Source: Rhodobium orientis (GTDB lineage: Bacteria > Pseudomonadota > Alphaproteobacteria > Rhizobiales > Rhodobiaceae). Taken from it: a stretch of 58,135 bases of DNA. The translations under genes were made by a program, and so were the position numbers. Of this stretch, positions 7,264 to 35,656 are shown piece by piece. The stretch is taken from NCBI RefSeq assembly GCF_003258835.1, contig NZ_NPEV01000016.1, positions 1-58,135 of the forward strand, given 5' to 3'. The notes beneath the pieces are model-generated. The model was not told the DNA's origin. It did no database searches and was given only the letters and a program-made list of their open reading frames with translations. Each line of letters opens with the position of its first letter. Position 1 is the stretch's first letter.

Positions 7264-8013
7264 ATGCCGGAAAAAACCATCGTCATCACGGGCGCCGGCT
7301 CCGGCATCGGACTGGCGACCGCCGAGCTTCACGCCGCCAGGGGCTGGCACATCGCCGCCGTCGACCGCGATGCCGCCGCGCTTGAGCGCATGAAGGAACG
7401 GCTCGGCGACGCGTCGGTCAGCCTCCACGCCGCCGACATCACCGACGAGGCGGCGGTCGAGACCCTCGCCGCGGAGTGCCGCGATAGCGCGCCGCCGGTC
7501 GCAGCGCTCGTCAACAGCGCCGGCATCGGCGCCGCCATGCCGATCACCGACACCACGTCGGAGATGATGCGGCGCATCTACGAGGTCAACGTCATCGGCG
7601 CCTTCCAGCTTTGCAAGGCGCTGACGCCGCTGATGACCGAGGCCGGCGGCGGCGGCATCGTCAATATCGTCTCGGTCTCCGGCATCAAGGGCAATTTCGG
7701 CCGCTCGGCCTACGGCGCCTCCAAGGGCGCGCTGATCACGCTGACCAAGATCATGGCGGTGGAACTGGCCGCGGCCGGCATCCGCGTCAACGCGGTGGCG
7801 CCTGGGCCGATCGAGACGGCGATGTCGCGCGACCATCATAGCGAGTCGACGCGCGAGGAATGGCACCGCACCATTCCGATGCGGCGCTACGGAACGCCGG
7901 AGGAAGTCGCCGAGGCGGTACTCTTCCTCGCCGATCCGCGCACCTCCTCCTACGTCACCGGACAGATCCTCAGCGTCGACGGCGGCTTCGTCAGCGCCGG
8001 ACTGATGGTCTGA
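7264..8013 (+). CDS. SDR-family NAD(P)-dependent oxidoreductase
   Basis: 249 residues, classical short-chain dehydrogenase. The cofactor loop GAGSGIG is at 10-16, Asp 34 after the second strand favours NAD(H), NSAG is near 84-87, and the catalytic set is Ser 137/Ser 139, Tyr 150 and Lys 154 (YGASK). The C-terminus has the usual SVDGGF. GGAGA upstream of ATG 7264 supports the start, 25 bases after the transketolase gene. It probably oxidises an alcohol or reduces a carbonyl in the same pathway as the transketolase. The substrate is unknown. Confidence 0.9.
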   Translation: MPEKTIVITGAGSGIGLATAELHAARGWHIAAVDRDAAALERMKERLGDASVSLHAADITDEAAVETLAAECRDSAPPVAALVNSAGIGAAMPITDTTSEMMRRIYEVNVIGAFQLCKALTPLMTEAGGGGIVNIVSVSGIKGNFGRSAYGASKGALITLTKIMAVELAAAGIRVNAVAPGPIETAMSRDHHSESTREEWHRTIPMRRYGTPEEVAEAVLFLADPRTSSYVTGQILSVDGGFVSAGLMV

Positions 8014-8129
8014 GGCGGCGCGCGGGAGCGCTCGGGCGACATGCGGCTCGACGGTGGGCGGAGTGCCGGTGTATGGAGGATCGGCGGCGGTCCCGTCGCC
8101 GACGATTTCCGCAGCCTGGAACGGGTGAC

Positions 8130-9746
8130 ATGAACGCTGATCCCGACAGCAACCGTCCGCCTTCGACGAAGGTCTCCAACCTCGCCCATTTCCTGACGCG
8201 GAACGCCGCCCGGCTCGGCGACCGGCCGGCCATCGTCTGGGGCGACACGGTCCTCACCTGGGCCGGCCTCGACGCCCGGGTCTCCGCGCTCGCCGCGGCG
8301 ATGCGCGACGACTACGGCATCGGGTTCGGCGACCGGGTGCTGCTGCATTCCCCCAATAGCAACCAGATCACCGAGACCATGCTCGCCTGCTGGCGGCTCG
8401 GCACCGTCTGGGTGCCGGCCAATTTCCGCCAGAGCGCCGACGAGGTCGCGTTCCTGGCTGAAAAGGCCGACGTCTCGTTGATGGTCTGCGAGGCCGGATT
8501 CCCCGACCACGCCGCCGCCTGCCTCGAAGGGACGCCACGGCTTCAGAAGGTGCTGCGCGTCGGGCCCGGCGATTTCGGCGACGACTATGAGGCCGCCGTC
8601 GCCCGGCACCTCGGCACCGACGTCGCCAATGCCGAGGTCGACCGCGACGATCCCTGCTGGCTGTTCTTCACCTCCGGCTCCACGGGCCGCCCCAAGGCCG
8701 TGGTGCTGACCCACGGCCAGCTCACCTTCACCGCCCTCAACCACCTCGCCGACCTGATGCCCGGGACCGCGCCGGAGACCGACGCCAGCCTCGTCGTCGC
8801 GCCGCTGTCGCACGGCGCCGGCATGCACCAGCTCACGCAGATCGTCGCCGGCGTCACCAGCATCCTGACGCCGAAGGGAAAGTTCGACCCGGCGAAAGCC
8901 TGGGACCTGATCGAGCGCTACCGGATCACCAACCTCTTCACCGTCCCAACCATCGTCAAGATGCTCACCGAGTCCCCCGCCGTCGACGCCTTCGACCATT
9001 CCAGCCTGCGCTACGTCATCTATGCCGGCGCGCCGATGTACCGGGAGGACCAGAAATTCGCCCTGAAGAAGCTCGGCAAGGTGCTGGTGCAGTATTTCGG
9101 GCTAGGCGAGGTCACCGGCGCGATCACCGTGCTGCCGCCGGGTGAGCATTACGAGGAGGACGTGCCGGAGGCCCGCATCGGCACCTGCGGCATCGAGCGC
9201 ACCGGTATCGAGGTCAGCATCCAGGACGATTTCGGCCGACCGCTCGGGTCGAACGAGACCGGCGAGATCTGCGTGACCGGCCCGGCCGTCTGCGCCGGCT
9301 ATTTCCGCGACGACCACGCCAACGCCGCGGCCTTCCGCAATGGCTGGTTCCGCACCGGCGACCTCGGCCATCTCGACCGCGAGCGCTTCCTCTACATCAC
9401 CGGCCGCGCCTCCGACATGTACATTTCCGGGGGATCGAACGTCTATCCGCGCGAGATCGAGGAGATCCTGCTCTCCCATCCGGCCTTGAGCGAGGTCGCG
9501 GTGCTCGGCGTGCCCGACCCGCAATGGGGCGAGTGCGGGTTGGCGGTCTGCGTGCCCGTATCGGGTGCCGCGCCTTCGGCGGAGGACCTCGCCGATTTCC
9601 TTTCCGCCAAGCTCGCCCGCTACAAGCTGCCGGCCCGCTACGTCTTCCTCGACGAAATGCCGAAGACCGGCTACGGCAAGATCACCAAAAAACTCGTCCG
9701 CGAGCACCTTGCCGCCGAGGGCCTGTTGGAAACCGCCCCGTCCTGA
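8130..9746 (+). CDS. AMP-dependent acyl-CoA synthetase/ligase
   Basis: 538 residues from ATG 8130 (MNADPDS). The frame is open further upstream, but that part is low-complexity Arg-rich sequence without similarity. Adenylation motifs are TSGSTGRPK (181-189), the YGA/QYFGLGE region, RTGDLG, and the C-terminal TGYGKITKK with catalytic Lys 517. The reaction is carboxylate + ATP + CoA to acyl-CoA. Its place at the end of the TRAP-transketolase-SDR operon suggests activation of a carboxylic acid product of the pathway. The 116-base gap before it leaves co-transcription likely but unproven. Chain-length specificity cannot be read off. Confidence 0.88.
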   Translation: MNADPDSNRPPSTKVSNLAHFLTRNAARLGDRPAIVWGDTVLTWAGLDARVSALAAAMRDDYGIGFGDRVLLHSPNSNQITETMLACWRLGTVWVPANFRQSADEVAFLAEKADVSLMVCEAGFPDHAAACLEGTPRLQKVLRVGPGDFGDDYEAAVARHLGTDVANAEVDRDDPCWLFFTSGSTGRPKAVVLTHGQLTFTALNHLADLMPGTAPETDASLVVAPLSHGAGMHQLTQIVAGVTSILTPKGKFDPAKAWDLIERYRITNLFTVPTIVKMLTESPAVDAFDHSSLRYVIYAGAPMYREDQKFALKKLGKVLVQYFGLGEVTGAITVLPPGEHYEEDVPEARIGTCGIERTGIEVSIQDDFGRPLGSNETGEICVTGPAVCAGYFRDDHANAAAFRNGWFRTGDLGHLDRERFLYITGRASDMYISGGSNVYPREIEEILLSHPALSEVAVLGVPDPQWGECGLAVCVPVSGAAPSAEDLADFLSAKLARYKLPARYVFLDEMPKTGYGKITKKLVREHLAAEGLLETAPS

Positions 9747-24040: not shown

Positions 24041-25069
24041 TCAGGCCGATTTGCGCGTTCCGAATACGGCACCGGCCAAGACGATGAAGCAGCCGACGAC
24101 GAAGGTCTGCCAGGTGCTCGGAATGCCGGCGAGGATCAGCACATTGTTGACCAGCGTGATCAGGACGACGCCGAGGATGGTGCCGAGGACGCTGCCGCCA
24201 CCGCCGGTGATGCGCGCCCCGCCGAGGACGACGGCGGCGATCACCGTGAGTTCGGTGCCGACGAGATCGAACGGATTGGCGATCCGGTTGGCGGAGACGT
24301 GCAGCATGCCGGCGATACCGGCAAGGAAGCCGGAAAAGGCAAAGACGAAGACCTGCACCTTGCGCGCGTCATAGCCGAGCCGCTCGGCGATCGACGTATT
24401 GCCGCCGATGGCAAAGATCGCCCGGCCCATCAGGGTCCGGTTGAGGATCCACCAGGTAACGACGGCGGCGGCCACCAGCATCAGCACATAGGCCGGCAGG
24501 ATGGCGATCGATCCGGTGTCGGTCTGCACCCGCCACAGCTCGAATTTGCCGAACTCCTCGATCGGCAGCGGGATGTTTACGAACAGCTCCGTGCCGATGA
24601 AGGTCAGCAGGAAGCCGCGGATGACGTAACTCGTACCGATGGTGACGATCAGCGCCGGCGCCCGGAGATAATGGACGAGAAGGCCGTTGCCGATACCGAT
24701 GATCGTACCGCCGAGCGCCGCGATAACGAGGATGACCGGCATTGGCATCCACGGCGCAGACGCCGCGACCGCCGTGGTGATCCAGTACATCATCAGGGCG
24801 GCGATCGCGGTGAACGACAGGTCGATGCCGCCGGCGGCCAGGATGACCAGGAAGCCGAGGCCGAAGAGACCGGTGACCACCGAGGCGCGGGCCATGTCGA
24901 AAATGTTGGAGACCTGCCAGAACTCCGGCGCGATGGCGCCGATGGTGACGCTGACGAGTACGATCAGGATGAGGGTGAAGACCGGCGGGTTGCGGATCAG
25001 CCAGCGGCCGATCCGCTTCATGGATGCCTGATCCTCGGAGGTGGAGTTGGTCCAGACGAAATCGCTCAT
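24041..25069 (-). CDS. Sugar ABC transporter permease (RbsC family)
   Basis: 342 residues. Typical RbsC-like membrane protein of about ten helices, with GIDLSFTAIAALMMYW, the conserved AFSGFLAGIAGMLHVSAN, and VAAVVLGGARITGGGGSVLGTILGV. The ATG overlaps the stop of the ATPase gene (25066-25069). A second permease of the same family lies at 27888, so the importer probably uses a permease heterodimer, as in AI-2 and rhamnose systems. Confidence 0.9.
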   Translation of the reverse strand: MSDFVWTNSTSEDQASMKRIGRWLIRNPPVFTLILIVLVSVTIGAIAPEFWQVSNIFDMARASVVTGLFGLGFLVILAAGGIDLSFTAIAALMMYWITTAVAASAPWMPMPVILVIAALGGTIIGIGNGLLVHYLRAPALIVTIGTSYVIRGFLLTFIGTELFVNIPLPIEEFGKFELWRVQTDTGSIAILPAYVLMLVAAAVVTWWILNRTLMGRAIFAIGGNTSIAERLGYDARKVQVFVFAFSGFLAGIAGMLHVSANRIANPFDLVGTELTVIAAVVLGGARITGGGGSVLGTILGVVLITLVNNVLILAGIPSTWQTFVVGCFIVLAGAVFGTRKSA

Positions 25070-26667
25070 GATCCTGCCTCCGCCACTCCGGCTTCCGACG
25101 GCTCTGCGCTGGCGAGCGCGTGATAGAGCATGTCCTCGTCGACCTCTTCGGCATCGAACGTCTCGGCAATCCTGCCCTTGCGCATCACCATGATGCGGTC
25201 GCAGTTCTGCAGGAGTTCCGGAAGGTCGTCGCTGACGATGATGACACCCATGCCCTCGCCCGCGAGCTTCTGGATGATGCGGAAGATGGTGTCCTTGGAG
25301 CCGACATCGACGCCGACGGTCGGGCCGTGCAGGACGAACAGCTTGGGCTGGGTCGCAAGGCCGCGCCCGATCAGCACCCGCTGCTGGTTGCCGCCGGACA
25401 GCGACTGCACAGGGTTCTTCAGGTCGGCGGCGACGATGTGCAACTGCTCGGCAATCGCCTCGGACAGCTTGCGGCTTTCGCCGACATTGATCATGCCGAG
25501 GCGGTTCCTGATGCGGTCGAGGATCTGGACGACGATGTTGGCGCTGATCGGTTTTTCCAGGAACAGCCCTTCCGACAGGCGGTCCTCCGGCACATAGCCG
25601 ATGCCGGCGTCGATGGCATCGACCGGCTGCCGCAGCGCGACGGCCTTGCCGTCGACCCGGATCTCGCCGCCGTCTGCGGGTGTTACCCCGGCAAGCGCGC
25701 GGGCAAGCTCGTTGCGGCCGGAGTCGAGCAGGCCGGCGATGCCGAGGATCTCGCCCTTGGCGAGCGAAAAGCTGACATCGGCGAAATCCCGTCGGCGCCG
25801 CAGATCCTTGACCTCAAGCAGACCGGGCGCGCCGATATCGGCGCGGCGATAGCGCGAGGCATCGAGATGCCTGCCGGTCATCCAGAAGCTGAGTTCGTCC
25901 TTCTCGTGATCCTGAATGTCGCCTTCCTTCACCAGTTCGCCGTCGCGCAGGATGATGAAGTGGCCGCCGATCGACTTGGACTCGTCGAGCTTATGGGTAA
26001 CGAACAGGACGGCGACACCGCTTTCGCGCAACTGGCCGACGACGTCGATGAGGTTGTCCACCTCGCGCTTGGTCAGGGCCGAGGTCGGCTCGTCCATGAT
26101 GACGAGCTTGGCCTTGACGGCGATGGCCCGCGCGATCGCGACGAGCTGGCGGGTGGCGATGGGAAGCTCTTCCACCAGCAGCGAGCGGAACCCCGGGTCG
26201 GTCGGCAGGTTGACCGCCTCCAGAGCCTTGACGGCGGTGGCGTCGAGGCGGCTGCGGTCGATCTGCGACGACAGCCGGCCCTTGGCCTCGACCAGTTGCT
26301 GGGAGAGCGAAATGTTTTCGGTGACGGTGAGGTTCGGCAGCAGCGACAGGTCCTGGTAAACGGTCTCGATGCCCGCCGACAGCGCGCCGAGCGGCGTCAG
26401 CGAGGTGACCTCCCTGCCGTCGATGAGGATGCTGCCCTCGTCGGCCGGCTGCGCCCCGGAGATGATCTTGATCAGCGTGCTCTTGCCGCTGCCGTTCTCA
26501 CCCATCAGGTGATAGATCTGGCCGGCCTCGATCGTGGTGCTGACACCGCGCAGGGCATGGACACCGGCAAAGCGCTTGTGGATGCCGGAAAGCTCCAGAA
26601 ACGGCGTGGCGCCGGCCGTCGATGCGCTGCCCTCGGGCATGAGTGGAGAAATTGCGCTGCTATCCAT
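25066..26667 (-). CDS. Sugar ABC transporter ATPase (RbsA family), altered Walker B in domain 2
   Basis: 533 residues from ATG 26667; GTG 26676 and ATG 26640 are alternatives and none has a strong ribosome site. Two ATPase domains: the first has Walker A GENGSGKST (about 56-64) and an intact IMDEPTSAL; the second has the degenerate GLLDSGRNEL usual in the family and a full LSGGNQQ signature. Its Walker B, however, reads LHGPT (about 446-450), where most members have LDEPT, so both acidic residues are gone. I recall similar NGPT/HGPT forms in some polyol/tetritol transporters, so this may be a subfamily trait. It powers the importer of this operon. Confidence 0.9.
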   Translation of the reverse strand: MDSSAISPLMPEGSASTAGATPFLELSGIHKRFAGVHALRGVSTTIEAGQIYHLMGENGSGKSTLIKIISGAQPADEGSILIDGREVTSLTPLGALSAGIETVYQDLSLLPNLTVTENISLSQQLVEAKGRLSSQIDRSRLDATAVKALEAVNLPTDPGFRSLLVEELPIATRQLVAIARAIAVKAKLVIMDEPTSALTKREVDNLIDVVGQLRESGVAVLFVTHKLDESKSIGGHFIILRDGELVKEGDIQDHEKDELSFWMTGRHLDASRYRRADIGAPGLLEVKDLRRRRDFADVSFSLAKGEILGIAGLLDSGRNELARALAGVTPADGGEIRVDGKAVALRQPVDAIDAGIGYVPEDRLSEGLFLEKPISANIVVQILDRIRNRLGMINVGESRKLSEAIAEQLHIVAADLKNPVQSLSGGNQQRVLIGRGLATQPKLFVLHGPTVGVDVGSKDTIFRIIQKLAGEGMGVIIVSDDLPELLQNCDRIMVMRKGRIAETFDAEEVDEDMLYHALASAEPSEAGVAEAGS

Positions 26668-26758
26668 TCCAGGCACCCGGGAAATCCGGCTTTCTTGAGG
26701 TTCGGTTCGGGTGGCGAACCGCCGGCTGTTGTCCGGCGACAGCTCCCGGCCCGAAGGG

Positions 26759-26782
26759 CCTGCGGGGCGATTGCCCCGCAGG
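26759..26782 (-). other. Strong intercistronic hairpin between binding-protein and ATPase genes
   Basis: CCTGCGGGGC and GCCCCGCAGG form a perfect 10-bp stem with a GATT loop, 26 bases past the binding-protein stop. Weaker hairpins follow in the same gap (around 26702-26742). No U-run is present. The likely role is protection of the binding-protein message or partial termination, giving more binding protein than ATPase. Confidence 0.6.
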
Positions 26783-26808
26783 AGTTTGGCAAGGCGACTT
26801 CGGGAGGA

Positions 26809-27813
26809 TCAGAAGTCGTACTTGTCGAGGTTGTCCTTGTTGACGTCGATCCAGGCCTGGCCGGTCACGATGATGCCCTTGCCCGGACCCTTCTTCAGCT
26901 TCATGTTGGTGTAGCCGGGAACGCCGAGGTCCATGCCGTCGGTGAACTCTTCGCCGTCGATAAGCATCTTGGCGATCTTGTTCATGACGAAACCGGCGTC
27001 CTTCGGATCCCACAGGCTGATGCCGGTGACCGCACCGCTCTTCAGGTAGCGGCTGGTGTCGTTCGGCATGCCGATGCCGTAGACGCAGATCTTGCCGACG
27101 AGGCCGGCTTCCTCAAGCGCGCGGCCGATGCCGATCGGATCCACCGCGGAACCGCCCTGGATACCCTTCAGGTCCGGGTACTTCTTCAGGAGTTCCTTGG
27201 TCTTGTTGTAGGCGGTGTTGGCGTCGTTGAAGGACTCGTTCTTCGGCGAGACGAGCTTCATGTCGGGGTATTTTTCCGCAGCATTGGCCGCCGAGGCGTC
27301 GGCCCACTGGACGTGGGTCAGGCTGCCGAGCGAGCCGACGAAGCTCGTCCAGGTGCCCTTCTTGCCCATGCAGTCGGCGAGCTGATCGTTGAAGTGCGCG
27401 CCGAAGGCGGCGTTGTCGAACGCCTCCATATCGACCTGGGTGTTCTTCAGGTTGTCGGCCTCGTGCGTCATCACCTTGATGCCGCGATCCATAGCGCGCT
27501 TCAGCACACCTTCCAGCATCGGCGGGTCGAACGGCACGACGGCGATGGCATCGACGTTCTTGGCGATCAGGTCTTCGATGAGGCGGACCTGCTGGGCGGC
27601 GTCCGCCTTGCCCGGGCCGATCTCGTTGGTGGTCACGCCGTCGGTCTCTTCGCCGTACTGGACGACGCCCTCGTCCATGCGGGTGAACCAGGTCTCACCG
27701 GCGAGCTTGACGACGGTGGTGATCTGCACGTCATCGGCCGCAGCAAGGCTGCTTGTGCCGACCATGGCGCCGAGCGCGACAGCGCTAAGAGCGAGTTTTT
27801 TCCATAAGGTCAT
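26809..27813 (-). CDS. Sugar ABC transporter substrate-binding protein (RbsB/LsrB-like)
   Basis: 334 residues with a Sec signal (cleavage near ALAA/D at about 26). Periplasmic-binding-protein type I fold; segments such as RLIEDLIAKNVDAIAVVPFDPPML and GSAVDPIGIGRALEEAGL resemble the autoinducer-2/rhamnose-binding group (LsrB/RhaS). It sits between two permease genes and after dhaK-dhaL. With the tetrulose-type enzymes of the module, a four- or five-carbon polyol or ketose is a reasonable ligand; this is inference. Confidence 0.88.
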   Translation of the reverse strand: MTLWKKLALSAVALGAMVGTSSLAAADDVQITTVVKLAGETWFTRMDEGVVQYGEETDGVTTNEIGPGKADAAQQVRLIEDLIAKNVDAIAVVPFDPPMLEGVLKRAMDRGIKVMTHEADNLKNTQVDMEAFDNAAFGAHFNDQLADCMGKKGTWTSFVGSLGSLTHVQWADASAANAAEKYPDMKLVSPKNESFNDANTAYNKTKELLKKYPDLKGIQGGSAVDPIGIGRALEEAGLVGKICVYGIGMPNDTSRYLKSGAVTGISLWDPKDAGFVMNKIAKMLIDGEEFTDGMDLGVPGYTNMKLKKGPGKGIIVTGQAWIDVNKDNLDKYDF

Positions 27814-27887
27814 CTGTTTTTCCTTCCTCTCCTATGAACCCTCTTTCTTCATTGGTGTGCACAAGAGGGCGAGTGCGCTGAGCCTTG

Positions 27888-28871
27888 CTATCCGCCGGGT
27901 TTGGTCTGCGGCGAAAGCAGGGTTCGAAAGTCGAATCTCGAAACCGCCAGGAAAATCAGCAGCAGCAGCCCCCAGGCGAAATCCCGGAAGAAGTTCGAGA
28001 TGTTGAGAAAGTTGAACATGCTGGAGAGCATCTGCAGGGCCGATGCCGACAGCACCACGCAGGTGATCTTGCCGTAGCCGCCGGTCGGCCGGACGCCGGC
28101 CATGACGGCGATCAGGATCGCGATCAGCACGTAGGAGGTGCCGTAGTCCCACTTCACGCTGGAAATCCGGGCGGCGATGATGAAGCCGGCGACCGATGCC
28201 AGAACGCTCGACAGCGTATAGGCCGTCATCAGCAGGCGCTTCTGGTTGAAGCCGGCAAAGCGCGCCGCCTTGGCATTGCTGCCGAGCATGTAGAGGCGCA
28301 TGCCGAAGGGGGCGAAGCGCAGGGACGCACCGATCGCGATGGCGATACCCAGGAACACGGCAAAGCAGATCGGCACGCCGAGGATCGGCGTATGGATGAA
28401 GTTGTCGAGCGGCTCGATATAGCCGAGGCGCACGCCGGAGCCGTTGGTCAGCACGACGCTGACGCCGGTGAAGGCGAGCGAGGTGCCGAGCGTGGCGATG
28501 ATCGGCGTCAGCCCGGCGCGCGAGATGAGAAGGCCGTTGACGAGGCCGCAGGCGAGCCCGACGACGAGGCAGACGCCGGCAAAGACGAAGGCATAGGCCA
28601 TCGGCAGTTCGTCCGGCGAGACCATCATCGGCACGAGAAGCGCGGAGACGATGCCGGCAAGGTTCGCCACCGCGATGCCCGACAGGTCGATGCCGCCATT
28701 GCCGGAGATCATCGCCAGCGTGACGCCGATGGCGAGGAGGCCCAGCTCCGGGATCTGCGTCGCCATCGACTGCAGATTGTAGATGTTGATGAAGTTCTGG
28801 CCGGCAATCGCCACGGCCGCGACCAGCACCAACGCGTTCAGCGCGACAAGAAAGTTCAGTTGGCGATCCAT
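27888..28871 (-). CDS. Sugar ABC transporter permease (RbsC family), second subunit
   Basis: 327 residues, RbsC-type, with GNGGIDLSGIAVANLAGIVSA, GSNAKAARFAGFN, and a C-terminal GGYGKITCVVLSASALQML. It is clearly different in sequence from the permease at 24041, which supports a heterodimeric channel. It lies 54 bases after dhaL and 74 before the binding-protein gene, all on the minus strand. Confidence 0.88.
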   Translation of the reverse strand: MDRQLNFLVALNALVLVAAVAIAGQNFINIYNLQSMATQIPELGLLAIGVTLAMISGNGGIDLSGIAVANLAGIVSALLVPMMVSPDELPMAYAFVFAGVCLVVGLACGLVNGLLISRAGLTPIIATLGTSLAFTGVSVVLTNGSGVRLGYIEPLDNFIHTPILGVPICFAVFLGIAIAIGASLRFAPFGMRLYMLGSNAKAARFAGFNQKRLLMTAYTLSSVLASVAGFIIAARISSVKWDYGTSYVLIAILIAVMAGVRPTGGYGKITCVVLSASALQMLSSMFNFLNISNFFRDFAWGLLLLIFLAVSRFDFRTLLSPQTKPGG

Positions 28872-28925: not shown

Positions 28926-29579
28926 TCAGCTCCCCGCCGCTGCGAGCTTTTCTTTGGCGTCGGTCGCCAGCACCTTGAGGATCAGCGCGCAGGAGGTCGC
29001 CCCGGCATCGAGGACGCCGATGGAGCGCTCGCCGAGGCGGCTTGCGCGCCCGACCCGGGCGGTCATTTCCTTGGTACTGTCGCGGCCCTTTTCCGCGGCG
29101 ACGACCAGAGCGTCGAGCGCTTCGCTAAAGGACTTGCCGTCGGCGAGCGCGCCGTTGAAGGCGGCGAGCGCCGGAACCAGCGCATCGAGCAGCGTCTTGT
29201 CGCCGACCTGGGCCGAGCCGATGGACTGGATGCCGTCGAGCCCGCTCGCCAGCATGGCGGCGAACAGCTTCGCGTCGATCTCGTCCTTGCCCTCGATGGT
29301 TTCCGCGCATTGCATGAACAAGACACCGTAGAGCGGGCCCATGGAGCCGCCGATTTCCGTCAACAGCACGGTGCCGAGCGTGTCCAGGGCCGCGGCGAGC
29401 GACATGTCGTTGCCGCGAATGCGCTCGGCCGCCATGGTGAAGCCCTTGGCCATGTTCACGCCATGGTCGCCGTCGCCGATCTTGCCGTCGATGTCGCTGA
29501 GATAGCCGCGGTTCTTGACGATCTCGTCGGCCATATCGAGGACGATGTCGCCGGCGGAAGCGTTCGCGAATGTCTGCAT
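28926..29579 (-). CDS. dhaL: Dihydroxyacetone-kinase-type subunit DhaL (nucleotide-binding)
   Basis: 217 residues from ATG 29579, chosen because GGAGGAGG lies five bases upstream. The Mg-nucleotide motif GDGDHG (Asp 36, Asp 38) and GGSMGPLYG, GDKTLLDAL and RSIGVLDAGATS are all present. It accepts or holds ATP and passes phosphate to the ketose bound by DhaK (29597). No DhaM-like PTS protein is encoded here, so direct ATP use, as in erythrulose kinases, is likely. It is 17 bases downstream of dhaK. Confidence 0.9.
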   Translation of the reverse strand: MQTFANASAGDIVLDMADEIVKNRGYLSDIDGKIGDGDHGVNMAKGFTMAAERIRGNDMSLAAALDTLGTVLLTEIGGSMGPLYGVLFMQCAETIEGKDEIDAKLFAAMLASGLDGIQSIGSAQVGDKTLLDALVPALAAFNGALADGKSFSEALDALVVAAEKGRDSTKEMTARVGRASRLGERSIGVLDAGATSCALILKVLATDAKEKLAAAGS

Positions 29580-29596
29580 GCCTGCCTCCTCCGCGC

Positions 29597-30595
29597 TCAC
29601 AGCAGCCGCGCCGGACATCTGACGTCGACGTCCAGCAGGCGCTTCATTTCATCGTCCAGCGCCATCACCGTCAGCGTCGCGCCGACCATGTCGAGCGAGG
29701 TGAAGTAGTTGCCGACATAGGTCTTGTGGATGGTGATGCCGCGCGCCGCGATTTCCTCTGAGATGGCGTCATTGAGGATGTAGAGCTCGTCGAGCGGCGT
29801 CGCGCCGAGGCCGGAGATCAGCACGGCAACTTCCGCGCCCTCCTCAAGGCCGTGGTCGTCGAGCACGATATTGGCCATCTCCTTGCCGACCTCGGCCGCG
29901 GTCTTCAGCGGCTCGACGCGCACGCCCGGCTCGCCGTGGTGGCCGATGCCGACTTCCATGGTGTCGGGCTCGATGGAGAAATTCGGATGTCCGACCGCCG
30001 GCAGCGTGCACGGCGCCAGGCCGACGCCGACGGAGCGGCAACTGTCGATCGCCTTCTGCGCGGTCTCGCGAACCTCTTCCAGGCTCGCCCCTTCGGCGGC
30101 CTTGGCCCCACCGCACTTCCACATGAAGATTTCGCCGGCAACGCCGCGGCGCTTCTCGCGCTCGTCGGGAGCGGCCGAGCAGACGTCGTCATTGGCAACG
30201 ACGGTGGCGATCTCGATGCCTTCCTTGGCGGCCAGCTTGATCGCCATTTTGACGTTCATGTTGTCGCCGGCGTAGTTGCCGTAGAGGCAGACGACACCCT
30301 TGCCGGAATTGCACGCCTTGGCGGCGTCGAGGAAGCTCTTGGCGGTCGGCGAGGAGAACAGTTCGCCGACGGCGACCGCGTCCAGGAGGTTCTGCCCGGT
30401 ATATCCCAGGAAGGCCGGCTCGTGCCCGGAACCGCCGCCGGTGATCACCCCGACCTTGCCGTCGACCGGCGCATCCTTTGCGACGATGACGCGCGAATTT
30501 TCCTCAGAGAGGCGGACGATATCGGCATGGGCCTTGACGAAGCCCTTGAGGGTATCCTCGACAACCTCATCCGGATCGTTGACGAAACGCTGCAT
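29597..30595 (-). CDS. dhaK: Dihydroxyacetone/erythrulose-kinase-type subunit DhaK
   Basis: 332 residues. All residues used by E. coli DhaK are in place: GGGSGHEP with His 58, YGNYAGD with Asp 111, and GIGHHGEPGV with His 220, which forms a hemiaminal with the keto group of the substrate. With DhaL (28926) it phosphorylates a short ketose. It is the first gene of a seven-gene leftward operon with a sugar ABC importer. Next to an EryI-type isomerase this favours a ketotetrose (D- or L-erythrulose) over dihydroxyacetone, but sequence alone does not settle it. Confidence 0.9.
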   Translation of the reverse strand: MQRFVNDPDEVVEDTLKGFVKAHADIVRLSEENSRVIVAKDAPVDGKVGVITGGGSGHEPAFLGYTGQNLLDAVAVGELFSSPTAKSFLDAAKACNSGKGVVCLYGNYAGDNMNVKMAIKLAAKEGIEIATVVANDDVCSAAPDEREKRRGVAGEIFMWKCGGAKAAEGASLEEVRETAQKAIDSCRSVGVGLAPCTLPAVGHPNFSIEPDTMEVGIGHHGEPGVRVEPLKTAAEVGKEMANIVLDDHGLEEGAEVAVLISGLGATPLDELYILNDAISEEIAARGITIHKTYVGNYFTSLDMVGATLTVMALDDEMKRLLDVDVRCPARLL

Positions 30596-30871
30596 TGCGC
30601 CTTCCCATTTCCTCGGATCAGTCGATCAGTCGGTTGTTGTGGAGATGAAGCCGGCCGGCACCGCCCCGGGAGCCATCCGCGCGGCGACGCGGCCCGCGCC
30701 GGCGCCCGCCATCGGACGGAACCATCGCCGACGGGCGGGAGACGATCCCGCCGCCGCGGGCCGCGGTCGGCCGCTCGGCTTTGAAAAGGGGTCCCATTCG
30801 ACTTCCTCCCATCCGCCCTGGCCTGTCGGCCCTGCGGATTCGTCTCGTCAGCCCGTTCTTGTTGTTCGCTG

Positions 30872-30909
30872 ACATTGACAATGTTCGTCTCATTGCTGAC
30901 ATTTGTCAA
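30872..30909 (-). promoter_or_regulatory. Promoter of dhaK operon overlapped by two palindromic operators
   Basis: On the minus strand TTGACA (30909-30904) and GAACAT (30886-30881) are 17 bases apart, a reasonable sigma-70 promoter for the leftward operon. A perfect palindrome ACATTG-A-CAATGT (30872-30884) covers the -10 and TGACA-TT-TGTCA (30897-30908) covers the -35. This layout fits repression by the DeoR or SorC-type regulator encoded to the right. Transcript start has not been seen, so the promoter call is inference. Confidence 0.55.
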
Positions 30910-31009
30910 CAGCGCGTTTTCACGGTCAAAACGCCGCAGCGCCTACGCCAACTGGCAAACGCGGCCGAATCCCCCGCTTTCAGCTATTTGAAGGCCGAAA
31001 TATCAATGA

Positions 31010-31027
31010 ATGTGAGGAAATTCACAT
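31010..31027 (+). promoter_or_regulatory. Crp-type site, perfect TGTGA-N6-TCACA
   Basis: ATGTGA-GGAAAT-TCACAT is fully symmetrical in its arms and matches the enterobacterial Crp consensus exactly. It lies 135 bases before eryI. Rhizobial Crp-like proteins often use other sequences, so this may instead be an operator of the local DeoR or SorC regulator. Confidence 0.45.
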
Positions 31028-31056
31028 CCTGATGTTGTTTTCGCGCGCCTGATGTT
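31028..31056. repeat. Direct repeat of CCTGATGTT, 20 bases apart
   Basis: CCTGATGTT occurs at 31028-31036 and 31048-31056. The 20-base period is close to two helical turns, so a protein could bind both on one face. It directly follows the Crp-type palindrome and lies about 105 bases before eryI. Confidence 0.4.
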
Positions 31057-31161
31057 ACATCTATGTTCTGTTGACGGCTCACGGCGGCCGGAGATCGCCG
31101 CGCGGCACGCAGGACGGCGCCGCCCGAACATCCGGCTCGATCTGCAAGGAAAGGACATCCC

Positions 31162-31635
31162 GTGAAGGTGGCAGTTGCAGGCGACAGCGCGGGCGAAGGC
31201 CTGGCGCACATTCTCGCCGAATACCTCAAGGCGAATAAGTCGAACCTGGAGGTTTTCGAGGTCTCACACACCGAGAACGGCCCCGATCCGTTCTACGCCA
31301 ATATGGCCGACCGCGTCGCATCGGCGGTCATGGACGGAACCTACGACCGGGCGATCCTCATCTGCGGCACCGGCATCGGCGTGTGCATCAGCGCCAACAA
31401 GGTGCCGGGCATCCGCGCCGCGCTGACCCACGACACCTATTCCGCCCAGCGCGCGGCCCTGTCGAACAACGCCCAGATCATCACCATGGGCGCCCGAGTC
31501 ATCGGCGTCGAGCACGCCAAGGTGATCGCCGATACCTATCTTGGACTTGCCGAAAGCTTCGACCCCAACGGGCCGTCCGCCAAGAACGTCGAGGCCATCG
31601 ACGGCATCGACGTCAAATACGAAAAGGCGTCCTAG
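31162..31635 (+). CDS. eryI: EryI/DerI-type D-erythrulose-4-phosphate isomerase (RpiB/LacAB family)
   Basis: 157 residues. RpiB fold with AGDSAGEG at the start, [13 protein letters not shown] (Cys 68) and [27 protein letters not shown]. In ribose-5-phosphate isomerase B a histidine (E. coli His 99) opens the sugar ring; the aligned position here is in SNNAQ and is Asn. Tetrulose phosphates cannot form that ring, so this fits the EryI/DerI group that converts D-erythrulose 4-phosphate to D-erythrose 4-phosphate. In Brucella the homologue lies with a DeoR gene, as here. GTG start with AAAGGA upstream. It heads the rightward operon. Confidence 0.78.
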
Positions 31636-31820
31636 GGCCCAATCGCGCCTGCAGAGCGGCGGAAACTCTACGCATTACCGGGCTGGACCCGTCGGATCCG
31701 ACCGGGACGCCAGTGCCGCACGCGATGGGGCGCAAGCGCGCATGTCGCATTTACCGTCGCGTGTGTTAGCGTCTGAGCGTGCAATCCGTGCCGTGCCTTT
31801 CGGCCGATGGACCCGACGCG

Positions 31821-32627
31821 ATGCAGGATGACAGCGACGCGACCGAAAGCGTGAAGCTGCCCGCCGGCCCCGGCGAGCGGCGCAAGGCGCTGCTGGATTA
31901 TCTGCTGCCGGCCGGCTCGGCCCAGGTCGACGAACTCGCCAGCCATTTCGGCGTCAGCCGGATGACCGTCCACCGGGATCTGAAAATCCTTGAGGATCAA
32001 GGCATCGTCCGCCGCGTCCATGGCGGCGTCACGGTCCACTCCTCGAACCTTGAAGACAGCACCTTCCTCTACCGCTCGCTGCTTGCGGACGCGGAAAAGG
32101 ACGCGCTGGCGCGCGCCGCCGTCCAGCTCGTGGAGCCGGGCCAGGCCGTCATCCTCGACGATTCCACCACCGTGCTGCACATGGCGTCCCACATCGTCGC
32201 CCGCAAACCGTTGACGGTGATCTCGAGCGGCCTGTCCGCAATCGAACGGCTGAAGGACGCCCACGGCATCGAGACGATCTGCCTCGGCGGCCACTACAAC
32301 GCCCGCTTCAACGCGTTTTTCGGCTATTTCTGCGAGCAGGCCATCGGCTCCCTGCGCGCCGACATCCTTTTCATGTCCACATCGACCGTCCTCGGCGCCA
32401 CCGCCTATCACCAGCAGGAGGAGATCGTCAAAACCAAGCGCGCGCTGATGAACGCCGCCGACAAGACGGTCCTGATGATCGACAGCTCCAAATTCGGCAA
32501 GACGGCGCTGATCAAGCTCGCCGGCCTCACCGAATTCGACCAGGTCATCACCGACAGCGGCATCGCGCCGGACGACGCGGAGGCCTTGCGACAGGCGGGC
32601 GTGCACCTGCGCGTGGTGGAGGTCTAG
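31821..32627 (+). CDS. DeoR-family transcriptional regulator
   Basis: 268 residues from ATG 31821; GTG 31779 is an alternative and neither has a clear ribosome site. The N-terminal HTH (VDELASHFGVSRMTVHRDLKILEDQGIVRRVHGG) is classic DeoR, followed by the sugar-phosphate-binding domain with ILDDSTTVLHMASHI and FMSTSTVLGATAYHQQE. DeoR proteins usually repress and are released by a sugar phosphate, here perhaps erythrulose 4-phosphate. Placed 185 bases after eryI, as in the Brucella deoR-eryH-eryI group, though no triosephosphate-isomerase-like eryH is present here. Confidence 0.87.
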   Translation: MQDDSDATESVKLPAGPGERRKALLDYLLPAGSAQVDELASHFGVSRMTVHRDLKILEDQGIVRRVHGGVTVHSSNLEDSTFLYRSLLADAEKDALARAAVQLVEPGQAVILDDSTTVLHMASHIVARKPLTVISSGLSAIERLKDAHGIETICLGGHYNARFNAFFGYFCEQAIGSLRADILFMSTSTVLGATAYHQQEEIVKTKRALMNAADKTVLMIDSSKFGKTALIKLAGLTEFDQVITDSGIAPDDAEALRQAGVHLRVVEV

Positions 32628-32684
32628 AACCGTGTTGGCAGGCTGCGGCACCGCCCGCGATATACAACTTCTACAAGAAAAACC

Positions 32685-32698
32685 TCGACACATGTCGA
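32685..32698. promoter_or_regulatory. Palindrome upstream of the sorC-dhaK fusion
   Basis: TCGACA-CA-TGTCGA has perfect six-base arms. It lies 148 bases before the chosen start of the fusion gene, in an AT-richer stretch of a 218-base gap. It is a likely operator for autoregulation by the SorC domain or for the DeoR protein. Confidence 0.45.
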
Positions 32699-32845
32699 AA
32701 AGTCGTTGAACTATGATGTCAAAGGCTGAGCCGCGCTGCTATCATCTGCCGGGTGGTCGAAACACAACGGACCCTGAAGCGAGATACCGGTGATATGTCG
32801 ACTCGTGTATCGTCACCGCTGCGCAAAGCGAGCGTAGGACGCCCG

Positions 32846-34870
32846 ATGGGAGACACCCCACAAAGCCCTCCCTTGCGGTTCGGGGACGATCCCTACGTCT
32901 GGGCCTGCTGGCTCTACTACCAGGATCGCCTGACCCAGAGCCAGATCGCCGAGGCCATGGGCGTCTCGCGGGCGACCGTGAACGCCTATCTGTCGGAAGC
33001 CCGCGACCGCGGCATCGTCAACATCTCGCTGGAGCCGGCACGCCTCGCCTCGCTGACCGTCGCCGACGAGATCAGGCGGCATTTCGGCCTGGAAAGCTGC
33101 CTCGTGGTGCCGAGCGAGGAAACCCACCCCCTGATCGACCGGCTCGGCCGCGCCGGCGCGCTCGCCCTGCAGAGCCTGCTCAAGTCCGGCGATACGCTCG
33201 GCGTCGTCTGGGGCCGCACCATCATGGCCGTGGCCGAGCACCTGAAGAGCCCGCCGCTGCAGGACATGACGGTGGTCCAGGCGACCGGCTCGACCCAGGC
33301 GACCTTTGCCTACACGCCGGACCTGTGCACCACGGCCTTTGCCGAGGCGCTCTCGGCCAAGTCCATCAAGATCAGCGCCCCCGCCATCGTCGGCTCGCCG
33401 GAGCTCGCCCGCGCCATGATGGGCGAGCCGCTGATCGCCGACGAACTCGCCGCGCTCGCCAAGGTCAATCGCATCATCTTCGGCATCTCCTCCTTGAGGC
33501 CGAATTCCACCATCCACGCCAGCGGCTTCTTCGAGCAGGTCTCGCTGCAGCATTACCTCGCCCGCGGCGCTGCCGGCGTCCTCGCCGGGCGCTTCATCGA
33601 CCAGAACGGCGCCCCGGTGGACGGCCCGCTCCATGCCCGCACCATCGGCATCCCGCTCGACGTGCTGACCGGCATCAAGACCCGCATCGCGGTCGCCGGC
33701 GGCTTCGACAAGGTGCCGGCCCTGTTGGCCATGCTGCGCGGCGGCTATGCCAACATCCTGATCACCGATGCCGCCACCGGGCGCGGCATCCTCAATGCCG
33801 AGGGCGTCGCCCCCGCCCGCCCGCAGGCAAAGACCCCGGCGCGCACGCCGGTGATCGTGCGCACCCAGATCAAGAAATTCCTCAACCGGCCCGACGATGC
33901 GGTCGACGAGATGCTGGAAGGCGCCATCAACGCCAACCGCCGCTATCTGAAGCCGGTCGCCGGCTCCAACCGGGCCCTCGTCGCGCGCCACGGGCCGCGC
34001 CCCGGCAAGGTCGGGCTGGTCATCGGCGGCGGCTCCGGCCACGAACCCTGCTTCCTCGGCTATGTCGGTCGCGGCCTTGCCGATGCCGTCGCCATCGGCA
34101 ACATCTTTTCCTCGCCGCCGCCCGATCCGATCGCGGCGTGCGCCCAGGCGGCCTCCGGTGACGCCGGCGTGCTGTTCGCCTATGGCAACTACAGCGGCGA
34201 CGTCATGAATTTCGAGATGGCCGCCGAACAGGTCGAGGAGCGCGGCATCAAGGTGCGCACCGTGCTGACCACGGACGACATCGCCTCCTCGCCGATCGAG
34301 GACCGGGACGGCCGCCGCGGCGTCGCCGGCAACGTCCTGATCTTCAAGGTCGCGGGCGCGGCCTGCGACCTCGGCCTGCCGCTGGAAGCCTGCGAGGCGG
34401 TGACGCGCAAGGCCAACGCCCGCACCTACACCATCGGCGTCGGGCTGGAGCCCTGTTCGCTTCCGCAGATCCGCCGGCCGACATTCGAACTCGGCCCCGA
34501 CGACATGGAGGTCGGCATCGGCATCCACGGCGAGCCGGGCGTTGCCCGGGAAAGCCTGAAGGCGGCCGATGCCATCGTCGACACCGCCATCGACGCCATC
34601 TTCAAGGAGATGGACGCCAGGCCGAACGAACGGGTTGCCGTCCTCGTCAATTCCTTCGGCGCGACGCCGATGATGGAACTCTACATCCTCTACCGAAGGG
34701 TGGAGCAGAGACTGTCGGCGCGCGGGATCGTCGTCGAAGCCAACTGGATCGGCCCCTATTGCACCTCGCTCGACATGGTCGGGGCGTCGATCACGATCAT
34801 GCACCTCGACAACGAGCTGTCGCGGCTGCTCAGCCGGCCGTGCGACACGGCCGCCTTCAAGGTCTTGTGA
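32846..34870 (+). CDS. SorC/EryD-type regulator fused to a complete DhaK kinase subunit
   Basis: 674 residues from ATG 32846, preceded by TAGGA; longer starts at 32753 and 32795 are less likely. Residues ~15-60 form a SorC-type HTH (TQSQIAEAMGVSRATVNAYLSEAR at 30-53) and ~62-320 the SorC sugar-binding domain (DTLGVVWGRTI, LPxxGP-equivalent and the terminal GGYANILITDAATGRGIL). After a Pro/Ala-rich linker (321-338), residues 341-674 are a full DhaK: GGGSGHEP with His 399, YGNYSGD with Asp 452, and GIGIHGEPGV with His 561, so all ketose-binding residues are kept. The reading frame is continuous. EryD, the Brucella erythritol regulator, is also SorC-type. The inference is a regulator that senses the ketose directly through its own kinase domain, or phosphorylates its own inducer with the DhaL at 35003. 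Automatic annotations of such fusions may exist; I know of no experimental study. Confidence 0.9.
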   Translation: MGDTPQSPPLRFGDDPYVWACWLYYQDRLTQSQIAEAMGVSRATVNAYLSEARDRGIVNISLEPARLASLTVADEIRRHFGLESCLVVPSEETHPLIDRLGRAGALALQSLLKSGDTLGVVWGRTIMAVAEHLKSPPLQDMTVVQATGSTQATFAYTPDLCTTAFAEALSAKSIKISAPAIVGSPELARAMMGEPLIADELAALAKVNRIIFGISSLRPNSTIHASGFFEQVSLQHYLARGAAGVLAGRFIDQNGAPVDGPLHARTIGIPLDVLTGIKTRIAVAGGFDKVPALLAMLRGGYANILITDAATGRGILNAEGVAPARPQAKTPARTPVIVRTQIKKFLNRPDDAVDEMLEGAINANRRYLKPVAGSNRALVARHGPRPGKVGLVIGGGSGHEPCFLGYVGRGLADAVAIGNIFSSPPPDPIAACAQAASGDAGVLFAYGNYSGDVMNFEMAAEQVEERGIKVRTVLTTDDIASSPIEDRDGRRGVAGNVLIFKVAGAACDLGLPLEACEAVTRKANARTYTIGVGLEPCSLPQIRRPTFELGPDDMEVGIGIHGEPGVARESLKAADAIVDTAIDAIFKEMDARPNERVAVLVNSFGATPMMELYILYRRVEQRLSARGIVVEANWIGPYCTSLDMVGASITIMHLDNELSRLLSRPCDTAAFKVL

Positions 34871-35002
34871 GGGAGCGCACCCATGTCCAACAAGCATCGG
34901 CCGTCGTCCCGTGGCATGGCAACCGGAGCAACAATCGCATCGCGGGTAACGTAACCAGCACGCTATCGAAGCCGGGTCGGAAATCCGGCACGATGGGAGA
35001 GA

Positions 35003-35656
35003 ATGATGACCACCAGTGTCGTTGAGCATCTGATTGCGATGTTCGGCAAGATTTCCACGGCGATCGACGACGCCGTGGACGAGCTTTCCGAACTGGACGG
35101 TGCCATCGGTGACGCCGATCACGGGATCACCATGGTCCTCGGCTTCCACGCCGTGACCGCCGCGCTGCAGAGCGCGCGCTCCGACCTTTCGAGCGCCTCT
35201 GCCGTGATGAACGCGGCGGCGACCGCCTTCCTCAATGCCGTCGGCGCCTCGACCGGCCCGCTTTATGCGACGGGCCTGCGCCGTGCCGCGCAGAGCCTCG
35301 ACGGGGTCGAAAAACTCGACCAGTCGGCGGCAACCGCCATGCTGACCGCGATCCCGGCCGGCATTCGCGAGCGCGGCAAGGCCCAGCGCGGCGACAAGAC
35401 GATGCTGGACGCCTGGCTGCCGGCCTCCGAGGCGGCGGCGCTCGCGCTCGCCAACGGCGCCGACAGGAAAACGTTCTGGAAGCAAGTGGTCGCGGCGGCC
35501 GAGCACGGCGCGGAAGCCACCCGCTCCATGGTCGCTGCCAAGGGCCGGGCCGCCCGGGTCGGCGGCCGCTCGCTCGGCCACATGGACCCCGGCGCCGCCT
35601 CCACCGTCATCATCATCAAGGCAATGGCCGAGGCCCTGTCCGGCGACGACGCCTAA
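35003..35656 (+). CDS. dhaL: Second DhaL-type nucleotide-binding subunit
   Basis: 217 residues. Motifs GDADHG (Asp 37, Asp 39), GASTGPLYA, QRGDKTMLDAWLP and RSLGHMDPGAAST match DhaL. GGGAGAGA precedes ATG 35003 (ATG 35006 is equivalent). It follows the SorC-DhaK fusion by 132 bases and is the natural partner of its kinase domain. It differs clearly from the DhaL at 28926, so the locus has two kinase pairs. The stop overlaps the stop of the convergent serine hydrolase gene by four bases. Confidence 0.9.
   Translation: MMTTSVVEHLIAMFGKISTAIDDAVDELSELDGAIGDADHGITMVLGFHAVTAALQSARSDLSSASAVMNAAATAFLNAVGASTGPLYATGLRRAAQSLDGVEKLDQSAATAMLTAIPAGIRERGKAQRGDKTMLDAWLPASEAAALALANGADRKTFWKQVVAAAEHGAEATRSMVAAKGRAARVGGRSLGHMDPGAASTVIIIKAMAEALSGDDA

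Follow-up and report, generated by a model that had tools for sequence, protein, structure and literature searches.

A 58,135-nucleotide stretch of DNA from Rhodobium orientis (contig NZ_NPEV01000016.1, positions 1 to 58,135; hereafter the window) contains a gene in which a SorC-type transcription regulator and a dihydroxyacetone kinase subunit, DhaK, are encoded in a single frame (32846..34870, forward strand, stop codon included). Comparison of the loci that carry this fusion reveals a candidate operator, which consists of two TTGACANNTGTCRA-type half-sites 21 bp apart and is found mostly at the promoters of fusion operons. Taking the evidence as a whole, we lean, with modest confidence, towards the view that the protein is an autoregulated SorC repressor tethered to a working kinase subunit for a C4 ketose, with the kinase product as its inducer. 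The fusion is already known to annotation pipelines, and we regard it as a variant that combines known kinds of protein, a SorC repressor and a DhaK/DhaL kinase; the operator is the main new result.

Domain structure of the fusion protein

Translation of the uninterrupted frame 32846-34867 gives a protein of 674 residues. From the N-terminus, it consists of a helix-turn-helix (HTH) DNA-binding domain at residues about 16-61 (32891..33028), a SorC effector-binding (sugar-phosphate) domain at residues 70-317 (33053..33796), a flexible linker of 24 residues (33797..33868), and a complete DhaK domain at residues 342-674 (33869..34867), all on the forward strand. The HTH is identified from HTH-type Pfam matches at residues about 23-58, from its conservation in the family and from helices in the structural model. 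The effector domain matches Sugar-bind (PF04198, E 1.9e-58), and residues 358-670 align with every one of the 313 positions of the Dak1 profile (PF02733, E 4.3e-114). In a sequence search of the PDB, the N-terminal half matched LsrR, DeoR and SorC and the C-terminal half matched E. coli DhaK. The N-terminal half therefore has the N-terminal HTH and C-terminal PF04198 domain by which the SorC family is recognised, and the C-terminal half has the complete Dak1 domain, catalytic His and Asp and covalent substrate His of the DhaK fold, in agreement with the initial annotation of this DNA, which had described a SorC-type regulator fused in frame to a complete DhaK.

The AlphaFold model of the fusion has a mean predicted local distance difference test score (pLDDT) of 75.5 and a predicted template modelling score (pTM) of 0.53. 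Because the pTM is low, the relative placing of the two halves is not fixed by the model. A structural search of the PDB with the model returned DhaK first, followed by SorC, DhaQ, DeoR and LsrR. In the linker region, residues 323-345 have pLDDT below 50, and among the 55 fusions described below the linker ranges from 24 to 35 residues in length and is not conserved in sequence. With this length, lack of conservation and low model confidence, the linker is more likely to be a tether than a rigid junction.

Within the DhaK half, counting along a phmmer alignment places H399, D452 and H561 at the positions of H56, D109 and H218 of E. coli DhaK. These are the three residues that the initial annotation had listed as kept, and they are invariant in all 55 fusions. 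At the residue level only, this led us to reject the idea that the DhaK half is dead through loss of catalytic residues.

Occurrence and conservation of the fusion

A search for proteins with SorC and Dak1 domains, and a mapping of their neighbours, had been proposed together with the initial annotation. Of 60 candidate loci, 55, including the window's own, carry an intact fusion; they come from relatives in the Rhizobiales and Rhodobacterales. The five that were dropped are two loci at contig edges (L065 and L134), an unfused pair (L135) and two non-fusions (L010 and L012). The 55 fusions are not all independent, as some come from near-identical strains and L050 and L122 are apparently one record. 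Within the genus, the fusion is present in two of three genomes, the third having no match, and in the second genome its frame is intact at 95% identity. A sequencing artefact or frame error joining two normal genes, which had been named as a concern, was rejected on the strength of this second genome and of the 55 intact fusions.

An intact fusion in a single row was found in 21 of 397 genomes drawn from the window's order, representing 9 family codes (E up to 1e-90, rows spanning more than 600 query residues without a stop). The same draw returned one fusion broken at contig ends (G309) and one unfused case (G102). A draw from the class gave one match in 385 genomes, which is the window's own genome, and a draw from the phylum gave five in 398 (E up to 1e-145), all of the window's class. 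In a collection of named genomes, 34 of the best 80 of 578 loci carry full-length fusions; among the matches listed, these include Rhizobium, Ensifer, Shinella, Labrys, Mesorhizobium, Ochrobactrum/Brucella and Aureimonas, as well as the roseobacters Salipiger and Tropicimonas. No fusion was found outside Alphaproteobacteria among these best 80 loci, where such rows match DhaK only.

In the plasmid database PLSDB, 110 records match the query over 80% or more of its length. Eight of the 40 matches listed are annotated, and seven of these eight annotations begin ‘bifunctional sugar-binding transcriptional regulator/dihydroxyacetone’. The full public name, ending in ‘kinase subunit DhaK’, describes the same fusion, for example on S. 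meliloti pSymB, and the expectation that similar fusions would already be automatically annotated in relatives was thus borne out. It is an automatic name only, given without operator, partner or effector. No experimental study of the fusion was found among the matches listed in the literature searched, which comprised open-licence papers.

Both halves of the protein look constrained on sequence comparison. Of three parts compared across the 55 fusions, the HTH is the best conserved, with a mean pairwise identity of 0.79, followed by DhaK at 0.71 and the effector domain at 0.65; identities in these last two domains correlate at 0.95.

A candidate paired operator

In the window, one paired operator is predicted at 30874..30910, between dhaK2 (reverse strand) and rpiB (forward strand), with half-sites 30874-30889 and 30895-30910 and core 30897-30908. 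A second is predicted at 32684..32720, upstream of the fusion gene, with half-site 32684-32699 and core 32686-32697; its partner half-site, 32705-32720, is weak (score -7.3) and overlaps a promoter-like match at 32716-32745. Both were located by a pattern search and a pair model. The initial annotation had suspected operators in 30860-31060 and 32685-32698, and each of these stretches proved to contain a conserved core. Two copies of the core GACANNTGTC are present in the window, at 30898 and 32687. The pattern YGACANNTGTCR occurs at nine places in the 5.19 Mb genome, two of them in this cluster's two intergenic gaps, compared with four places for a reversed control pattern. The seven further sites outside the cluster, including G000:C169:8494-8505, are possible other targets.

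Exact dyad counting gave the first hint of an operator, at low counts, and was superseded by trained site models. With a single-site model several divergent fusions fell below the training range; pairs resolved most of these. In 35 loci taken from the named genome collection (best 80 of 578), operon-start windows totalling 20.4 kb hold 31 core sites, against five in the remaining 592.5 kb. A core site lies inside an operon-start window in 27 of the 35 loci; L035 and L059 were tallied as outside, the start of the open reading frame having probably been called too far upstream. As for the spacing, a second half-site at exactly +21 bp has a mean score of 1.15 over 36 sites, while the next-best offset scores -18.4 and the median over 90 offsets is -33.9 (standard deviation 5.5).

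The pair model was trained on 19 loci, the training sites including their +21 partners, and the best pair with a spacing of 20-22 bp in each locus was compared with 10 shuffles. The test set consisted of 21 fused loci outside the training set, with close relatives such as L146-L150 left out. In 17 of the 21 the best pair beat all 10 shuffles, and 15 of these 17 pairs stand at the start of a cluster gene or operon, upstream of dhaK2, a transporter gene, a dehydrogenase or the fusion. Stand-alone or split SorC relatives also beat the shuffles in seven of seven cases, L166 doing so through a single strong half-site. In L162, L165, L166, L167 and L170 the site coincides with the beginning of sorC or lies shortly before it; in L164 it is about 340 bp upstream, and in L169 it is found where an ABC ATPase gene begins. 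In contrast, none of seven loci in which a DhaK of the wider clade is unfused gave a convincing pair; L177 was marginal (4.5 against 3.7 for the shuffles) and the other six did not beat the shuffles. The operator is, in these sequences, linked to the SorC half, and its recurrence near unfused SorC relatives suggests that the SorC half was probably a regulator on its own. Together with the conserved HTH, the sites suggest that DNA binding has been retained, as the initial annotation assumed.

It could alternatively be argued that the SorC half has decayed, so that the protein is in effect a DhaK, and that the cluster is controlled through these sites by a second local regulator, a DeoR-type protein of the DeoRC family (31779..32627, forward strand, identified by Pfam search), whose gene sits between the window's two operator sites. 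We consider this highly improbable. The HTH has the highest conservation of the three parts compared, relatives of the DeoR protein are found in the fetched stretch of five of the 55 fused loci whereas the site is found in many more, and the pair recurs near stand-alone SorC relatives. The fusion is the sole regulator among the gene clusters present in at least eight of the 35 loci; a gene that we take to be of GntR type is present in seven.

The whole arrangement covers about 37 bp and has two palindrome-like halves. A paper on this family (PMC11229326) describes SorC repressors as tetramers that bind two half-operators, with two-part operators of 39 bp for B. subtilis DeoR and 45 bp for CggR, and the layout found here resembles those of these tetrameric repressors. 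The fusion thus shares with B. subtilis DeoR, E. coli LsrR and K. pneumoniae SorC the HTH and PF04198 domains, the structural matches and, in what is described of the family there, a two-part operator at the regulated promoter, this last at the level of sequence only and with weaker partner halves in the window. It is unlike them in its C-terminal kinase subunit, the solved members among the matches being regulators alone.

The kinase subunit and its likely substrate

The fused DhaK resembles E. coli DhaKLM and C. freundii DAK in its complete Dak1 domain, in the equivalents of H56, D109 and H218, and in having a DhaL partner gene. This gene, dhaL1 (35003..35656, forward strand), follows the fusion, as had been noted initially, and encodes the likely nucleotide-binding partner of the fused DhaK. 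It matches PF02734 and, at 168.6 bits, lies above the TIGR02365 cut-off of 138.3, and it carries the Asp motif. A DhaL is encoded within 900 bp of the fusion in 55 of 55 loci, and the motif was seen in 54.

The fused DhaK differs from these kinases in being joined to a regulator, in falling below the equivalog cut-off, and in having G447, in all 55 fusions, in place of K104 of E. coli DhaK, a residue with a role in substrate binding. Judged by this replacement, its pocket is not of the canonical dihydroxyacetone kinase type. The window's genome also has a separate DhaK (at C184), close to a DhaM, that keeps the lysine; glycine is found in the fused DhaK, in dhaK2 and in a third copy, on C22. 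From this pattern we infer a C4 ketose rather than dihydroxyacetone as the substrate of the fused kinase. Besides the Lys-to-Gly change and the Lys-bearing DhaK near DhaM, there are hints from the pathway, namely a DerI-type isomerase in the window and a GolD/DthD-family dehydrogenase in relatives.

Proposed mechanism

We propose that the fusion is an autoregulated SorC-family repressor to which a DhaK subunit, still catalytically competent, is attached through a flexible linker. Probably as a tetramer, it would bind the half-operators, spaced 21 bp apart, at two promoters, that of its own operon and that of the linked transporter/kinase operon. The DhaK half would pair with DhaL1 and phosphorylate a C4, erythrulose-like ketose, and the resulting tetrulose phosphate, or an isomer of it in the pathway, would bind to the SorC domain and release the operator. 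Repressor and inducer-making enzyme would thereby be held in one chain at fixed stoichiometry.

By analogy with the family, the phosphorylated product of the kinase is probably the inducer. The SorC-family effectors described in PMC11229326 are sugar phosphates, and CggR is released by fructose bisphosphate or dihydroxyacetone phosphate. Since the SorC domain has an effector site of its own and family effectors are of this kind, the kinase product is the likelier signal; and since the fused enzyme should make such a compound, the simplest circuit is one in which the chain makes its own inducer. The initial annotation had suggested that the protein destroys its own inducer, which would be right if induction were by the free ketose, but the family precedent points the opposite way. 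It is also conceivable, although we hold this rather doubtful, that substrate turnover supplies the SorC half, within the same oligomer, with sugar phosphate at a fixed ratio, so that the switch would read pathway flux rather than pool size, with the supply of DhaL1 as a second input.

Several results weigh against the proposed repressor-kinase circuit. The fused DhaK scores 361.1 bits against the canonical DhaK equivalog TIGR02363, which has a cut-off of 406.25, and pLDDT is below 50 also in the DhaK loops 478-493, 536-548 and 560-562, the last of which contains H561. The partner half-sites in the window are weaker (6.0 and -7.3), and 4 of 100 shuffles of the window also reach two pattern sites; this control is modest, and the operator case rests on the comparison across loci. 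There, four of the 21 test loci gave no pair above the shuffles (L145, L153, L054 and L179, of which L179 and L145 are short or cut stretches), the pair in L047 precedes another sorC gene, that in L158 matches no known gene start, and that in L154 is marginal. The shuffles preserve no more than the single-base composition, and the common descent of sites among related loci inflates the counts. Repression is suggested by an overlap with one promoter-like match, which is not proof. A DeoR regulator is also present in the window cluster, and the effector could be the free ketose, another sugar phosphate or the product of DhaK2.

In E. coli, DhaK and DhaL control the regulator DhaR, and L. lactis has DhaS with DhaQ; both systems are made of separate proteins, with regulators of other families, and are controlled through protein contact. 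This raises the question of whether the DhaK half is itself the sensor, such that a ketose bound covalently at H561, or the DhaL or ADP/ATP state, would alter the affinity of the HTH for DNA and provide DhaR-like control within one chain. The invariance of the catalytic and covalent-binding residues is in keeping with this, and the structural matches of the DhaK half include DhaQ, a co-activator from L. lactis (2iu4), and chains of a DhaR-DhaK complex (4lrx, 4lry); according to the PDB titles, kinase or kinase-like subunits are tied to transcription of the dha operon in E. coli DhaR-DhaK/DhaL and L. lactis DhaS-DhaQ. We nevertheless think a sensing DhaK unlikely, in view of the long, variable linker with its low model confidence, the effector domain that the chain already has in its SorC half, and the operator near stand-alone SorC relatives, which suggests that the SorC half probably once regulated by itself. 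A direct switch of DNA binding by covalent ketose or phosphorylation state, as put forward in the initial annotation, is possible; the observation made there is confirmed and its interpretation partly supported.

On the proposed reading, the fusion unites in one polypeptide both components of a classic induction circuit, the inducer-making kinase and the sensing repressor. If the kinase product is the inducer, the protein would be a flux sensor found in nature, and one ready for use in tetrose-responsive switches. Soil and root bacteria carry the fusion, among them the model symbiont S. meliloti, and with the operator known, one protein and a short piece of DNA would suffice for a direct test of the regulatory role. 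NadR, BirA and PutA are also regulator-enzyme fusions or trigger enzymes that combine DNA binding and catalysis in one chain, and differ from the SorC-DhaK fusion in domains and pathways.

Origin of the fusion

Trees of DhaK and SorC were built with 31 of the 55 fusions, and a topology test with 20. In the DhaK tree, 28 of the 31 fused rows fall in one supported clade; L063, L131 and L133 are deeper fusions that lie with unfused DhaKs where the tree is not resolved. In the SorC tree all 31 fusions group together, weakly (84/68). The topology test does not reject a single clade for the 20 fused DhaKs (p-AU 0.58), and a single fusion event is likely on these sequences, though unproven. The neighbouring genes of G102 were considered as a direct ancestor and rejected: its split DhaK falls among unfused DhaKs, and a grouping with the fusions is weakly disfavoured (p-AU 0.047). 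G102 appears to show adjacency, not direct ancestry.

The history of the fusion also bears on whether it is merely a physical link, the halves being independent and the gain being one of co-expression or stability, without signalling. The flexible linker would suit such a link, and sorC and dhaK are plain neighbours in three loci (about 100 bp apart in L162, and with a distant SorC in L155 and L168). However, fusions are kept intact from Rhizobiales to Rhodobacterales, a single clade of fused DhaKs is not rejected, and usually one alone of two adjacent DhaK/DhaL pairs is fused; on balance we find a purely physical role improbable. In L162 the separate sorC and dhaK genes span 7419-9506, with the operator at the sorC start.

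Genes around the fusion

The other genes of the cluster were assigned from profile matches. The rpiB-type isomerase (31162..31635, forward strand) matches D-erythrulose-4-phosphate isomerase, NF051858, at 242.1 bits (cut-off 240). On the reverse strand lie dhaK2 (29597..30595), a separate DhaK that the tree places in another clade, dhaL2 (28926..29618), and a sugar ABC transporter (24041..28871) composed of a permease (24041-25069), an ATPase (25066-26676), a binding protein (26809-27813) and a second permease (27888-28871). The genes dhaK2, dhaL2, fusion and dhaL1 form the core of most loci, with dhaL1 preceding the fusion in some. In the Rhizobium-type operon, the order is ABC ATPase, permease, binding protein, GolD/DthD-family dehydrogenase (NF005309), dhaK2, dhaL2, fusion and dhaL1.

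We note that two complete, distantly related DhaK/DhaL pairs adjoin in the window (28926-30595 and 32846-35656), and that they occur together in most relatives; they are possibly kinases for the two enantiomers of erythrulose. In L047 (5837-7832) and L054 (5729-7387), dhaK2 and dhaL2 are replaced by a second DhaK/DhaL pair nearer to the fused kind, and in both loci the fusion operon is without an operator pair. Genes like OiaX, OtnK, tpiA or rpiB are found nearby in five of the seven loci where a DhaK of the wider clade is unfused. In Tropicimonas (L066, 958-16173), OiaX (NF042437) and D-erythronate dehydrogenase (NF043036) share an island with the fusion gene, along with further genes that we take to be of the tpiA, rpiB, transaldolase and OtnK types.

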